Positions 2,761 through 38,122 of a stretch of 38,122 nucleotides of DNA are shown here, piece after piece. Location of the stretch: contig LJUI01000022.1 in NCBI GenBank assembly GCA_001303705.1, positions 1 to 38,122 on the forward strand. Direction: 5' to 3'. The notes beneath the pieces were generated by a model, which was given only the letters and a program-made list of their open reading frames with translations, was not told the DNA's origin and made no database searches. Position 1 is the first letter of the stretch, and every line of letters starts with the position of its first letter. This stretch comes from a candidate division TA06 bacterium SM23_40. Lineage in GTDB: Bacteria > LJUI01 > SM1-40. Both the position numbers and the translations under genes were made by a program.

Positions 2761-5532
2761 ATGTCAACTGACCTGCTACCACAGACTGGCGGTACGGCTG
2801 GACCGGAGGCGGCGCCGTGCCACGATAGGGTGCCATGGCACGCTCTAGAGATACCGACCGTTGGCAGACGGCTGGAGTCTGACCCAGAGCGCGGCCTGAG
2901 CCTTGCGGAGGCCTATCGTCGGCTCAGACAGTATGGTCCCAATCTGCTCGAGGTCGTCGACAAGGTGCGCTGGTATCAGGTGTTCGCTCGCCAGTTCGTG
3001 AACATTCTCATCCTCATCCTGCTCGTGGCCGCCGGCATCTCGTTCGCCATCGGGGGCATCACCGATGCGATCACCATTCTGGTGATCGTGTTGCTCAATG
3101 GCGTACTCGGATTCGTGCAGGAGTGGAGGGCCGAGCGCGCGCTGGAAGCACTGCAAAGGATGCTCGCGCTGCGCAGCAGGGTGCTTCGGGACGGAGAGGA
3201 GCAGATAGTCGACGCCAGGGATCTGACGCCGGGCGACGTGGTTCTGCTGGAGGTTGGTGACCGCGTTCCTGCGGATCTGCGCCTGAGCGAGGTGCTCAAT
3301 CTCCAGGTGGACGAATCCTCTCTCACCGGCGAATCGGTGCCCATATACAAAGATCGGGCGCCTGTCGACTCGGGCGCGCCGCTTGCTGAGCGTTCATCCA
3401 TGGTCTGGATGGGAACCGTGGTCACGAACGGGCGTGCCCGTGGCATCGTCGTCGGCACCGGCATGGATACCGAGTTCGGGCGCATAGCGCAGGTGACTCG
3501 CGCCGTCGGCGAGGAGGTCACCCCGCTCCAGCATCGGCTGGGTGTGCTGGGGAAGCAGCTCGGTGCAATCGGAGTCATCGTCTCGCTGGTAGTCGCGGTC
3601 ACCGGATGGCTGCTGGGGAAACCGCTGCTGGAGATGATCCTGACGGGGATATCCCTGGCAGTGGCAGTCGTGCCGGAAGGCCTCCCCGCGGTCGTTACGA
3701 TCACTCTCGCCCTCGGGGTAAGGGCCATGGTCCGCCGCAGCGCCCTCCTTCGTCGCCTGCAGGCTGCGGAGACCCTGGGAGCCGCCACCGTCATATGTAC
3801 CGATAAGACCGGAACTCTCACAAAGAACGAGATGACAGTCCAGCGTATCTGGCTGCCGTCGCGCGAGCTCGAAGTGACCGGGGTGGGGTACGCCCCGGAG
3901 GGCGAGTTTCGTCACGGCGACGAGAGAATATCGCCGGGCGACCATCCTGATCTGCGTCATCTGCTTGAGACCGGCCTGCGGTGCAACCGTGCGAGCGTCA
4001 CTCAGGATGAGACAGGTTGGTACGCCGTGGGAGATCCGACCGAGGCCGCCCTCGTTGTCGCGGCGCGGAAGGGAGGGCTCGACTCTGATGGCGCACCTCA
4101 GCTCGTCAATGAGTTCTCCTTTGACTCCCGGCGCAAACGGATGACAGTCATCCAGGAGCATTCGGCGGGACTGATCGCGCACGTCAAAGGGGCGCCCGAG
4201 GTGGTTCTTGAGCGGTGTACACGTCTTCTGAAAGGGGGAGAAGAACGGGATCTTAGCGACGCCGACCGTGAGGCGGCGATCTCCACGTACGAGCGTCTGG
4301 CTGGGGAGGGACTTCGCACGCTGGCATTAGCGCGGCGAGTTCTCCCCCGGGATGCTGAGCTCGGAGAGGACCAGGTGGAACGAGATCTCACGCTTCTCGG
4401 CCTGGTCGGGATCATCGATCCGCCGCGTCGGGAGGTGCCCGAGGCCGTGCAGCTCGCGTACAGCGCGGGCATTCGTGTGCTTATGATCACCGGGGATGCC
4501 TCGGCCACGGCGCTGGCTGTCGCAAAGAAGATCGGGCTGCGGGCGAGACGCGCGGTCACGAGCCGCGAACTCGCAGCCATGGATGATGAAGAGCTTCGCG
4601 CCGCACTCGAGGAGGAGGCGATCTTCTCGCGGGTGGCACCTGAGCACAAGATGCGGATTGTGACGCTGTTGCAGGGAATGGGGGATGTCGTCGCGATGAC
4701 AGGGGATGGCGTCAACGACGCACCAGCTCTGAAGAAAGCCGACGTCGGCACTGCCATGGGGCTGCGTGGCACCGACGTGGCCAAGGGGGCGTCCGACATG
4801 ATCCTTCTCGACGACAACTTCGCCACGATCATCGGGGCCGTGGAGGAGGGAAGGCGTCAATATGACAACATCCAGAAGTTCGTGCGCTACCTTCTGAGTT
4901 CCAACACGGCCGAGATCGTGGCCATCTTTCTCAATATAGTGTTGGGCGGCCCGCTCATACTCCTCCCGGTGCAGATTCTGTGGATCAATCTCGTGACGGA
5001 CGGCATGACTGCGGTGGCACTGGGCGTGGAGCCTGCGGAGCGCGGGATCATGGAGCGTCGGCCGCGGCCCCCTCGCGCTCCACTTCTCGACCACGGCAGC
5101 ATCTTGAGAATCCTGCTCCTGGGCGGGTATATGGGCCTGGGGACGCTGTGGCTGTTTCGGCACTATCTGGCTGCCGGCATCGAAGATGCCCTGCCGCTCG
5201 CACAGACGGCCGCGTTCACCGGCCTCGTCCTCATCGAGAAGGTGAACGTGTTCAACTTCCGCTCACTCCGCCAGCCGCTCACGCGTATTGGCTTCTTCAG
5301 TAATCCCCTGCTGCTCATCGCGTGGGTGGTGTCAGCTGGCCTCCAGGCCTGTGCGGTCTATGTTCCGTTCCTGCAGCGGGCCATGCACACCGTCCCCCTG
5401 AGGGGCGTTGACTGGGCGCTCATGGTTCTTGTCGCGGCTCCGATTCTCGTCGTGGGGGAGGTGTATAAGTGGTCTCTCCGGCGACGAGAGCGCAGGGAGG
5501 CGGTACCGGCTCACACCAGGGACATTCGCTAG
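2761..5532 (+). CDS. P2A-type calcium-transporting P-type ATPase
   Basis: A 923-residue ion pump of the SERCA/PMR1-like group that exports Ca2+ using ATP. Landmarks from the ATG at 2761: N-terminal cation-ATPase domain, TGES (residues 189-192) in the actuator domain, PEGLP in membrane helix 4 (E306), phosphorylation motif DKTGTLT (D348), KGAPE in the nucleotide domain, and GDGVNDAP (D649, D653). The Ca2+ ligands of both SERCA sites appear kept: E306 in M4, N715 and E718 in M5 (SSNTAEIVAIF), N743, T746 and D747 in M6 (WINLVTDG), and E826 in M8 (LIEKVN). That predicts possible binding of two ions, but it is not proof. A GTG at 2737 is in frame; the ATG is preferred because AAGGAGG lies between them, although its 14-base spacing is long. 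It converges on the ABC permease gene with only 15 bases between. Confidence 0.93.
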   Translation: MSTDLLPQTGGTAGPEAAPCHDRVPWHALEIPTVGRRLESDPERGLSLAEAYRRLRQYGPNLLEVVDKVRWYQVFARQFVNILILILLVAAGISFAIGGITDAITILVIVLLNGVLGFVQEWRAERALEALQRMLALRSRVLRDGEEQIVDARDLTPGDVVLLEVGDRVPADLRLSEVLNLQVDESSLTGESVPIYKDRAPVDSGAPLAERSSMVWMGTVVTNGRARGIVVGTGMDTEFGRIAQVTRAVGEEVTPLQHRLGVLGKQLGAIGVIVSLVVAVTGWLLGKPLLEMILTGISLAVAVVPEGLPAVVTITLALGVRAMVRRSALLRRLQAAETLGAATVICTDKTGTLTKNEMTVQRIWLPSRELEVTGVGYAPEGEFRHGDERISPGDHPDLRHLLETGLRCNRASVTQDETGWYAVGDPTEAALVVAARKGGLDSDGAPQLVNEFSFDSRRKRMTVIQEHSAGLIAHVKGAPEVVLERCTRLLKGGEERDLSDADREAAISTYERLAGEGLRTLALARRVLPRDAELGEDQVERDLTLLGLVGIIDPPRREVPEAVQLAYSAGIRVLMITGDASATALAVAKKIGLRARRAVTSRELAAMDDEELRAALEEEAIFSRVAPEHKMRIVTLLQGMGDVVAMTGDGVNDAPALKKADVGTAMGLRGTDVAKGASDMILLDDNFATIIGAVEEGRRQYDNIQKFVRYLLSSNTAEIVAIFLNIVLGGPLILLPVQILWINLVTDGMTAVALGVEPAERGIMERRPRPPRAPLLDHGSILRILLLGGYMGLGTLWLFRHYLAAGIEDALPLAQTAAFTGLVLIEKVNVFNFRSLRQPLTRIGFFSNPLLLIAWVVSAGLQACAVYVPFLQRAMHTVPLRGVDWALMVLVAAPILVVGEVYKWSLRRRERREAVPAHTRDIR

Positions 5533-7094: not shown

Positions 7095-8132
7095 TCATTC
7101 GATCGGTTTGAGTCGCTTCTCCGCGATCACCCGGTTCAGGGTGGCGAGATCGTAGATACCGGAGAGATCCGGTTCCTCGCTGCCGAGAAATCCTGACTCG
7201 TATGCCCACTGTGCAGACTTGAAGAGTGAGCTCGTGACCGGGTCATATGTTAAGGTGGTTCTCGAGAGGGCGTCCTCGAGCACATTGGCCGGCAATGCCT
7301 TGTGTGTGATCTCCGCGATCCCGGCGTTGATGATTGTCCTGGCTTCCTCGGGATTGTCGTTTATCCATTCTGTCACGTCTACATGGGCGCGTATCCATGC
7401 CTCCACCAGGTCCGGGTGGTCTCTCAGGAACTGGGTCCGCACGATTACGTGGGCCGTCACAAACTTCCCTGCAGGCCAGATTTCTCGCTCATCCAGGAAC
7501 AGTTCTCCATTGCCCTGCCGTATCAACCGAGCCACCCAGGGTTCTTTCGTCCAGGCTGCATCGATCTCTCCCTTTATGAACAGGGAGAGCTGGTCGGGAT
7601 TCCTGACCGGCACAACCTGGACCGTTCCGCCCTTTTCGGTGAGCTCAAAGCCCTGGTCCCTGAGCCAGGCCCGGCAGGCCACGTCCTGGGTATTGCCCAG
7701 CTGGGGAGTGGCGATTCTCTTTCCGTGAAGGTCGGCATTAGTGCGTATGTCGGCTTCCTTCCGGACCACCAGGCCCGCACCTCCGCTCGACGCGCCGCAG
7801 ACGATTCTCAAGGCTTCGCCCTTCGATTTCACGTACCCGTTAACGGCAGGATTCGGACCGATATAGCCGATATCGACCTCACCAGCGAAGAGCGCTTCAA
7901 TCGCTGACGGCCCGGCATTGAATATCGTCCAGTTGATCTCCACATTCGGCCCGAGTGCTTCCCGGAACGTTCCTTTCGCCTTGCCGACGATCGCTGCTGA
8001 ATGGACGATATCCGGGAAGTGCCACGCCCGTACAGCCAGCGGGCGCCCCGGTTCCGTTCCAGCTTGATCGCTCCTGCTGCATCCCAGGGCAGTCAGCATC
8101 AACAGCCCTGTGAGAGCGTACCTCTTCTTCAT
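7095..8132 (-). CDS. ABC transporter substrate-binding lipoprotein, SsuA/NrtA/TauA-like
   Basis: A 345-residue binding protein with a lipoprotein signal: MKKRYALTGLLMLTALGC, lipidated Cys at residue 18. The mature part has the two-lobed NMT1/SsuA fold: FNAGPSAIEALFAGEVDIGY, then GPNPAVNGYVKS, GASSGGAGLVVR, GKRIATPQLGNTQDVA and AAWTKEPW. These patterns are closest in memory to aliphatic sulfonate or nitrate/taurine binders. The ligand cannot be fixed from sequence; sulfonate is my first guess. The start has GGAGG just upstream. It follows the DUF2490-like gene by 9 bases. Confidence 0.9.
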   Translation of the reverse strand: MKKRYALTGLLMLTALGCSRSDQAGTEPGRPLAVRAWHFPDIVHSAAIVGKAKGTFREALGPNVEINWTIFNAGPSAIEALFAGEVDIGYIGPNPAVNGYVKSKGEALRIVCGASSGGAGLVVRKEADIRTNADLHGKRIATPQLGNTQDVACRAWLRDQGFELTEKGGTVQVVPVRNPDQLSLFIKGEIDAAWTKEPWVARLIRQGNGELFLDEREIWPAGKFVTAHVIVRTQFLRDHPDLVEAWIRAHVDVTEWINDNPEEARTIINAGIAEITHKALPANVLEDALSRTTLTYDPVTSSLFKSAQWAYESGFLGSEEPDLSGIYDLATLNRVIAEKRLKPIE

Positions 8133-8141
8133 CGCATCCTC

Positions 8142-8900
8142 CTAGAGGCTGAATTGCAGACTTGTATCGAGAACATTGACGCTTCTCCATTCGCCACCTT
8201 GCCGCTTGTTCCTGAAGATATACGAGGCCTCGAGGGCTATCCTGTCGACGAGTTTCGCGGAAAGGCCTATGGACGTTCGGCGTTCGTTTGATGATCCGCC
8301 ATCGAAATCGTAAAACAGCTCGTGCGACAGGAGAGGCGCTACCTGACGTCCACAAAATCTGACCGGTCTCGCGCCCTTGATTCGGGCCCGATATACCCAC
8401 CGTTCACTGTCGAAACCATACTCGCCGCGGTTCCTCCAGGCAAACTTGAAATCACTGAGCCCGAAGCTGAGTGTTCCGTCGAGCGTGGCGAGATCTTCGC
8501 TTTCCCAGACGTCACCGACCTGCTTGCGTATGTAGACGTAGTAGAGAGCTGCGTCCAGATGGTCGGTGATCTTGAGCGTCGGGCCGACATATGCTTTGAA
8601 GTAATAGAACTCGCTCATGTTGTCTCTCAGGCGGATTTCTGGCTTGATCGAGAGCTTGGTTCTCTTATTGAGTGGCACTCTGAAGTCAGTTCTGCTCCAG
8701 TACTCCCAATCGTTGGCCTGACATAGCTCGGCCGTCACCATGAGAACGAGAATCGAGAAGAGAGAGAGAATCGAGGTGAGCAGGACGATTGATCGTCTCG
8801 GGCAGCCGGAGACGCGGGCGGGGGTCCGTAAGCCGTTCGCGGGTCCAGATCCCATCCGGAGTACCGGTCTCCGCCAGGTAGATGTGGGCTGTAGCTTCAC
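8142..8900 (-). CDS. DUF2490-like outer-membrane barrel protein
   Basis: About 252 residues. A longer open frame exists upstream, but GTG at 8900 has AGGGGAA six bases before it and is my chosen start. The N-terminus is basic, followed by a long hydrophobic stretch and a likely signal-peptidase site after CQA, before NDWEYWSRTDF. The rest is alternating beta strands such as WRNRGEYGFDSERWVYRAR and LSHELFYDFDGG, ending in a C-terminal aromatic/hydrophobic strand (SLQFSL), as in DUF2490 porin-like proteins. Function unknown. The 9-base gap to the binding-protein gene suggests it provides outer-membrane passage for the same importer, which is inference. Confidence 0.78.
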   Translation of the reverse strand: MKLQPTSTWRRPVLRMGSGPANGLRTPARVSGCPRRSIVLLTSILSLFSILVLMVTAELCQANDWEYWSRTDFRVPLNKRTKLSIKPEIRLRDNMSEFYYFKAYVGPTLKITDHLDAALYYVYIRKQVGDVWESEDLATLDGTLSFGLSDFKFAWRNRGEYGFDSERWVYRARIKGARPVRFCGRQVAPLLSHELFYDFDGGSSNERRTSIGLSAKLVDRIALEASYIFRNKRQGGEWRSVNVLDTSLQFSL

Positions 8901-37232: not shown

Positions 37233-37307
37233 GTCCCCATCGTCTAGCGGTTAGGACTCCACTCTTTCAAGGTGGCAACGCGGGTTCGACTCCCGCTGGG
37301 GACACCA
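37233..37307 (+). tRNA. tRNA-Glu (anticodon TTC), CCA encoded
   Basis: Cloverleaf: acceptor GTCCCCA (37233-37239) with TGGGGAC (37297-37303), anticodon stem CCACT/GGTGG around loop CTTTCAA, anticodon TTC at 37266-37268, T arm GCGGGTTCGACTCCCGC, discriminator A, CCA at 37305-37307. The D arm GTCTAGCGGTTAGGAC is typical of tRNA-Glu. No clear promoter is visible in the 120 bases before it. Confidence 0.96.
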
Positions 37308-37315
37308 GCCTGGGT

Positions 37316-37342
37316 TTGACTGGTCTGACCCTGGGCTATTAT
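37316..37342 (+). promoter_or_regulatory. Possible promoter of the candidate structured RNA
   Basis: TTGACT (37316-37321) and TATTAT (37337-37342), 15 bases apart, shorter than the 16-18 seen elsewhere here. Expected start near 37350. Confidence 0.45.
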
Positions 37343-37349
37343 ATTGCAG

Positions 37350-37602
37350 ATTTTTCGATTAGCTTGTGGGGCCGGTAGGCCTCCAGACCAAGCCACCTCG
37401 GTTGGGAGGCTGAGGGTCCAGCCCCCGGACAACGGTCCCATTTGGAGCTGAGGCGATGGATGCACCGGGTAGAATCGTCTCAGCTCCGCCTGTCTGGGCT
37501 CCCAAGCTGTGGTGCGACTCCCGGACCCTGTGGCCGCCATGCAAGTAGTTATACTGTAAGCAGATATGGTGCAACGGGCGACGCCCACTTTTTTCATTTT
37601 TC
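37350..37602 (+). ncRNA. Candidate structured non-coding RNA (6S-like outline)
   Basis: No gene is readable here, but the sequence folds as a closed unit. Outer stem: CTTG, TGG and GGCC (37363-37373) with GGCC, CCA and CAAG (37532-37545). Inside, a local hairpin GCCTCC/GGAGGC (37379-37410), then a long arm: AGGGTCC (37413-37419) with GGACCCT (37523-37529), AGCCC (37420-37424) with GGGCT (37496-37500), GAC with GTC, and a 14-bp stem GGAGCTGAGGCGAT (37444-37457) with ATCGTCTCAGCTCC (37474-37487). A closing stem, a bubble with a side hairpin and one long arm in 183 nt is the outline of 6S RNA. I cannot confirm the class. It lies between a promoter-like and a terminator-like sequence. Confidence 0.5.
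37568..37602 (+). terminator. Terminator of the candidate RNA
   Basis: A short stem GGGC/GCCC (37576-37579, 37583-37586), possibly extended by GTG/CAC, followed by TTTTTTCATTTTT. The stem is weak but the T tract is long, and a new promoter starts right after it. Confidence 0.6.
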
Positions 37603-37604
37603 AC

Positions 37605-37634
37605 TTGACTCGCCGGGCCGACTGGGTGTACAAT
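37605..37634 (+). promoter_or_regulatory. Promoter of the last (secreted protein) gene
   Basis: TTGACT (37605-37610), 18-base spacer, TACAAT (37629-37634). Expected start near 37641, about 390 bases before the next start codon. Confidence 0.7.
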
Positions 37635-37640
37635 CACCAT

Positions 37641-38031
37641 AGCCGATTCTTCTCGGCTTTGGAGGATTGAGCCCAGGAAACGGCCGCATATTCGCTAAGG
37701 TCGACGGCGGCGCCTTCCGCTGCCCGGGCCTATTTGAGACTGATTTCCGGCATCGATAGAGTGGGTGGCACACGGAACCAGAGACGGACTTCGATTTCGC
37801 TGACCCGAGCGGTAGAGCTGCTGGGGTCTGTCTATTTTTCGGCGGATACCCCGGCAGAGGAGCGAGGCCACGGTCGGCTGAGTGGCTGTGAGATTGGCAG
37901 GCACGAGGCTCCTCTTCTAACCCACGAGAGGAGGTGAATACGAGACGGGCCGAGATGAATCTGCGCAGCACCTGAGCACAACGGATTTTTGGGCAAACAT
38001 CGACGGTGTTTCCCAGCAGGAGGTCACAACG
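37641..38031 (+). promoter_or_regulatory. Long structured 5' leader, class unknown
   Basis: About 390 bases without a convincing gene. Hairpins: AGCCGA/TCGGCT (37641-37658) at the very 5' end; TTCCG/CGGAA (37745-37777); a perfect 10-bp stem CTGCTGGGGT/ACCCCGGCAG (37818-37857); CTCCTCT/AGAGGAG (37909-37933), which would hide a strong AGGAGG that has only a 13-codon frame after it (37934-37975, GTG start); and GGG-AAACA/TGTTT-CCC (37991-38013) just before the real ribosome site. This is more structure than a plain leader needs, so a riboswitch or attenuator is possible. I do not recognise a known class. Confidence 0.4.
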
Positions 38032-38122
38032 ATGAAAAGGCTCAACAGACGAGGTACCGTCTGTGCGGCGGTCGTGATGGCTGCTGCGCTCGTGGTCGGA
38101 GTTTGGTCCCCGGATGTCAGCG
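38032..38122 (+). CDS. Start of a secreted protein (cut by window end)
   Basis: ATG 38032 has AGGAGG eight bases upstream. The 30 codons visible begin MKRLNRRG and continue into a hydrophobic stretch of Ala and Val (AAVVMAAALVVGV), a signal peptide. The mature protein lies beyond the window, so its function is unknown. Confidence 0.75.
   Translation, partial: MKRLNRRGTVCAAVVMAAALVVGVWSPDVS

Follow-up and report, generated by a model that had tools for sequence, protein, structure and literature searches.

The stretch of DNA analysed here (the window) is the whole of contig C88, 38,122 nt, from a metagenome-assembled genome of 2.88 Mb in 189 contigs (89.8% complete), the single representative of its phylum among the genomes examined. 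Near the end of the window lies an intact tRNA-Glu gene (TTC; 37233–37307; 62.5 bits to RF00005), the sole find in ARAGORN and Rfam scans of the window, and directly downstream of it, as the initial annotation had said, a candidate structured RNA. The conserved part of this RNA, here called unit A, occupies 37352–37489; it is followed by a 3′ extension (37490–37596), a further promoter-like site, and a separately repeated leader, C (37636–38031), ahead of a reading frame for an exported protein that starts at 38032. All of these, and the substructures of A described below, are on the forward strand. For the genome, ARAGORN also reports a tRNA-SeC (TCA), which suggests selenocysteine use.

A promoter-like sequence, TTGACT-18-TATATT (37316–37345), lies ahead of A, with its -10 box (37340–37345) ending 22 nt before the first helix, P1 (GGGGCCG). 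The spacing is exactly 22 nt in two paralogs as well, C185a and C164, though C164 has only 72% identity to the window copy; their promoters are TTGACG-18-TATATT and the near-consensus TTGACA-17-TATACT, and all three are sigma-70-like. A second site, TTGACT-18-TACAAT (37605–37634), was found by promoter scan ahead of leader C. The region holds three promoter-like sites, against 0.4 expected from shuffles; a promoter flank (proposed as TTGACT/TATTAT) and a new promoter past the unit, both part of the initial annotation, are confirmed by the scan. For the copies on C73 and at C185b the scan listed no promoter for A. An inverted repeat, GCCTAGGGTT-N10-AACCCTAGGC, overlaps A's -35 box; it is perfect at C185a (L012:5441–5472) and imperfect in the window copy (about 37309–37336), and may be a tRNA terminator or else an operator.

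The limits of A were set at a presumed start 7 nt after the -10 box and at the point where both the homology shared with its paralogs and the last hairpin end; they agree with the fold and with the match to a covariance model of the unit, R1 (37355–37489). Its 5′ part is a core of three helices (37368–37439), of which P1 (37368–37374/37433–37439) pairs GGGGCCG with CGGTCCC, P2 (37378–37384/37405–37411) carries the loop GCCACCTC (37392–37399, placed from alignments), and P3 is a short stem (37416–37419/37427–37430). P1 and P3 appear both in the folds and in pair counts, P2 in the folds. After a linker of variable length comes a strong hairpin, P4 (37445–37486), again seen in folds and pair counts: a 13-bp stem with one G-U pair (37445–37457 with 37474–37486), which has a probability of 1.0 in all three folded lengths of the window locus and can be recognized as the long arm with one G-U pair first proposed. 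P4 probably marks the 3′ end of RNA A.

The 183-nt structure of the initial annotation does not survive as drawn. Its outer stem, CTTG/CAAG (the second strand at ~37540), uses sequence between 37490 and 37550 that is absent from every paralog, and the probability of that stem drops to 0 in the folded 37352–37596 transcript. The folding advantage of 37360–37550 over shuffles is only moderate (z -2.1; 5/200 as good), and for 37350–37602 eight of 200 shuffles were as good; 37354–37489 beats all of them (z -3.32, 0/200), chiefly thanks to P4, and 40 of 300 shuffles equal the core on its own. Across the copies, the whole unit compared with dinucleotide shuffles gave 0/200 for the window, 1/200 for C185a, 0/200 for C164, 6/200 for C185b, and 129/200 for C73; for the core without P4, the counts were 29/300 in C185a, 2/300 in C164, and 28/300 in C185b. 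The opposite strand is about equally stable, and more so in C164 (-69.3 vs. -62.2), so the strand assigned to A rests on the promoters. Beyond A, paralog matches stop at 37489, and the extension private to the window locus ends in a weak terminator-like stem and T-run: the T-rich terminator suggested earlier is there as a run of T at 37589–37594 preceded by a 4-bp stem, GGGC/GCCC, which a terminator scan with a threshold of five pairs did not list.

There are five copies of A in the genome, the window copy and four paralogs: C185:5447–5621 (C185a), with 84% identity to the window copy; C164:27148–27278, on the minus strand; one at the end of contig C73; and C185:3309 (C185b). A partial piece is found on C160. 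Homology to the window locus ends at 37488–37489, exactly where the P4 hairpin ends, so the sequence up to 37602 that was included in the original structure is private to this locus. R1, which was built from the same five copies that it recovers, finds them in a search of the whole genome at E ≤ 2.4e-11; on C160 it has a marginal match (E 0.09), apparently to the P4 hairpin alone. The C73 and C185b copies may be decayed, given the scan results for their promoters and, for C73, a fold at chance level.

Support for A from covariation is modest to weak. Of the cells in a five-sequence alignment (A2), 95.1% are paired, vs. 30–50% with the partners slid, and two P3 pairs show two-sided change: C164 has GCTC/GAGC in this stem and C185b GCTT/GGGC, where the other three copies have GTCC/GGAC. 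The covariation score was matched by 21 of 500 shuffles and the count of two-sided pairs by 141 of 500; 10 of 12 P4 pairs are invariant across the alignment, and the covariation term from RNAalifold for the five copies is slightly unfavourable (+2.62). P2 was not scored by the tool, and was left out of R1, because MAFFT misaligned C164 by one column; in the folds, as judged by eye, C88 and C164 differ in it by C-G to U-A and U-A to G-U. Stem probabilities of P3 in C164 and C185b were excluded as an artefact, the text search having picked another occurrence.

Outside this genome, R1 gave six weak matches in 289 other genomes, each antisense to a real tRNA gene, and a DNA search of 58 other genomes found no copy of A. 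A pattern from the 3′ half matched 13 loci in 84,980 species genomes, with a best R1 E-value among them of 2.2; two A patterns had no match in viral contigs, and likewise none in plasmids and phages. A matches no Rfam family at gathering score, and a permissive scan of 37300–37750 returned only nuoG (16 bits) and ctRNA_pGA1 (12.9 bits), both far under their cut-offs. The Acido-Lenti-1 RNA (RF01687), which appears in Table 1 of PMC2864571, has a sub-threshold match in C185a (24.9 bits; cut-off 37) that spans the inverted repeat and the -10 region; this covers the promoter region and not RNA A, was not seen in the window copy, and is probably due to chance. Literature searches, partial in coverage, found no description of an RNA like A. 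The idea of a structured RNA gene at this place is upheld by the fixed promoter distance in three copies, the shared structure, and the paralogs; A is probably an uncatalogued, lineage-restricted small RNA with paralogs, for which a function can be proposed by inference.

Two further repeated elements accompany exported-protein genes in this genome. Leader C, downstream of A in the window, is repeated on C90, C112, C116, and C61 at about 77–80% identity. Near 37930 it includes GAGAGGAGGTGA, also found in the C90 and C112 copies and located about 100 nt before the frame in several copies, and a putative ribosome-binding site, GAGGAGGTG. Leader B, about 150–170 nt long, has its own promoter (TTGACA-17-TARACT in scanned copies), a pair of conserved helices, and a T-run at its terminator-like end. 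Six copies were aligned: two on C185 (L012:5620–5850 and 3350–3545), and one each on C160 (L015 from about 12920), C128 and C28 (L019 and L021 from about 1500), and C117 (L110, minus strand). All six precede frames read as exported proteins, by a Pfam beta-helix match in one case and by eye in the remaining five. At gathering score Rfam matched neither the C185 copies nor the one on C160. Matches to a leader-B pattern in three viral contigs have only an 18-mer in common, look coding, and were set aside as chance. Similar promoter-plus-leader starts (TTGACA...GATAGGCTCTC...GGCTGATCCG) are found at L012 8390 and 10330, before the next beta-helix genes.

If A has a function as RNA, its loop may offer a clue. 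The 3′ end of this genome's 16S rRNA is GGATCACCTCCTTTCT, and it has CACCUC, 6 nt, in common with the loop GCCACCUC; at the DNA level the loop is identical in C88, C185a, C164, and C73, and the fifth copy retains CACCT. The loop is only variably open: its first bases are unpaired in C88, all of them in C164, and only part in C185a and C185b. Our preferred reading, with a probability of about 0.4, is that A is a stand-alone small RNA, one of a multicopy family of this lineage, made from its own promoter and acting in trans by pairing with ribosome-binding sites. Transcription would start from the sigma-70-type promoter just past tRNA-Glu (promoter-like sites precede A in three of the five copies) and would yield an RNA of about 138 nt from 37352–37489, at the window locus perhaps read through to 37596. 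The RNA would fold as the short three-helix core and the strong hairpin, and the loop would pair with mRNA ribosome-binding sites of the GAGGUG type, lowering translation; possible targets are the exported-protein genes adjoining most copies. As the predicted pairing spans only six bases, the mechanism is held as the most likely one at low confidence.

Binding to ribosome-binding sites is well documented among small RNAs. Of these, the multicopy CCUCCUCCC RNAs of alphaproteobacteria pair with these sites through a loop that is anti-Shine-Dalgarno-like or C-rich. A resembles AbcR1 and the CCUCCUCCC RNAs in being present in several copies per genome and in its loop with CACCUC, a predicted anti-Shine-Dalgarno sequence; it differs in lineage and in lacking any sequence relation that could be found, and A is known from sequence only. 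AbcR1 has an anti-Shine-Dalgarno region in the account of PMC6234868, in contrast to PmaR, the RNA with which that paper is concerned.

The main rival, unlikely but the one to be taken most seriously, is that A is passenger DNA: as exported-protein genes were duplicated in tandem and to scattered sites, the upstream tRNA end, promoter, and inverted repeats could have been copied with them, and the structure common to the copies would then be inherited sequence rather than a selected RNA. The C185a, C185b, and C160 copies do lie directly ahead of leader B and an exported-protein gene, decay is uneven (C160 retains P4 only, and C73 and C185b are without a promoter by scan), and the weak covariation is what such an origin would allow. 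Against it, the C164 copy stands away from leaders B and C with a near-consensus promoter of its own and the same 22-nt spacing, and its fold excess is strong (0/200); in addition, P3 pairing has been kept through two-sided changes.

A cis-acting role is distinctly less probable. A would then act on the downstream exported-protein gene in the manner of a riboswitch, as a leader or attenuator in which P4 is the terminator. Such genes do follow most copies, and P4 is strong and is followed by T-rich stretches in C185a, C185b, C160, and C164. However, in C185a and C185b a new promoter begins 7–11 nt past P4, so that the downstream gene has a start site of its own, and at the window locus the gene is 540 nt off, behind its own promoter. 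The C164 copy is near neither leader B nor leader C, and since it is absent among the copies of these leaders, A is more than a component of a leader. Nor is there an Rfam riboswitch at gathering score, permissive scans giving only NiCo at 12.9 bits, a chance-level result.

The orientation of the R1 matches in other genomes raises the question of whether the core of A is what is left of a tRNA gene, seen from its opposite strand, with the tRNA-like strand, or an antisense RNA, as the part that matters. The likeness extends to this genome: in a test of R1 on 30 of 44 tRNA loci, some of them overlapping and a few tRNAs counted twice, the 13 best matches were antisense, as were 19 of 41 overall, vs. 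3 sense. Read on the opposite strand, a tRNA (RF00005) has much of the geometry of A, with a 7-bp closing stem, a 2-nt joint, a 4-bp hairpin, and about 72 nt between stem ends, corresponding to the spacing of acceptor and D-arm; A has no T-arm or anticodon arm, however. The complement of C164 also matches tRNA-Lys over 27 nt, but in ten pairwise tests only C164 reached 4/200 shuffles, the other nine ranging from 15 to 181 of 200. The Rfam tRNA model is silent on both strands of C88 and C164 at E ≤ 10, and a sequence-only model found antisense tRNAs in just 6 of 47 matches (coordinates by eye) and in none of its top three. As most of the antisense matches are lost with that model, the likeness is mainly one of geometry, and we give this origin little weight.

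The tRNA 3′ ends near several copies are another matter. A pattern for the 3′ end of tRNA-Asn (≤3 mismatches) has four matches in the whole genome, one of them the real tRNA; its reversed control has no match. The other three tails precede copies of B (on C28), C (on C90), and A (on C73), and belong to decayed tRNA-Asn-like copies with their last 23 nt nearly intact (L021 ~1380–1440; L105 1420–1500, minus strand; L014 95–117, minus strand). On C185 a Glu-like tRNA tail precedes A and recurs ahead of the following leader, inside a 58-bp direct repeat (86% identity; L012:5381–5438 and 8118–8175) that ends in the tail; the two copies, about 2.7 kb apart, enclose a beta-helix gene together with RNA A and RNA B, and four beta-helix-like genes form an array here. 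A wider search for tRNA tails in 121,546 bases gave 12 matches, vs. 6 for reversed controls, and besides the native Glu (in the window) and Val (on C44, counted twice), only Asn-like tails occur at such places. These placements lend weak support to a speculative and rather improbable scenario in which A originated on the strand opposite a tRNA copy and spreads together with B, C, and exported-protein genes in cassettes bordered upstream by tRNA 3′ ends. It would amount to a gene-cassette system based on tRNA ends and equipped with RNA modules, its borders being the intact tRNA-Glu in the window, the Glu tails on C185, and the Asn-like tails on C73, C28, and C90.

There remains 6S RNA, which the initial annotation had seen in the outline of its structure. 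6S is a long rod whose large central bulge mimics an open promoter; it binds RNA polymerase and templates product RNAs. The unit as first drawn resembles 6S (SsrS, RF00013) in size range and in having its own promoter, and the 191-nt fold of the window locus is rod-like, but the rod is seen only in that fold, the paralogs being without its 3′ strand; where 6S has a rod with a central bulge, A has a three-helix core and a separate hairpin. RF00013 (gathering score 46.4 bits) has no match in the window region even at E ≤ 10, and its single match in the genome, at 101 bits, is on another contig (G000 C44:988–1170), beside a frame that we take to be zapA-like from the usual neighbour of 6S; a known 6S gene elsewhere in the genome is one half of the combination (such a gene there, no transcript here) that the initial annotation itself had named as evidence against its suggestion. 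As some bacteria carry two 6S RNAs, the gene on C44 alone is not decisive; yet a second, divergent 6S RNA is very improbable here, for all the length of the unit first proposed and the rod-like fold, given the silence of RF00013, the 101-bit gene on C44, the paralog boundary at 37489, the absence of the rod sequence from every paralog, and the loss of the outer stem in the 37352–37596 transcript.

If A is just a passenger of duplication, it usefully shows the risk of naming an RNA gene when fold and promoter are the only grounds. If it is expressed as the small RNA preferred here, it would be an uncatalogued family in a phylum represented here by a single genome, accompanied by two or more further families of repeated leader (B, C) ahead of exported-protein genes. 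That would suggest that this unexplored lineage controls secretion through RNA, and that units of gene plus RNA accumulate at tRNA ends.
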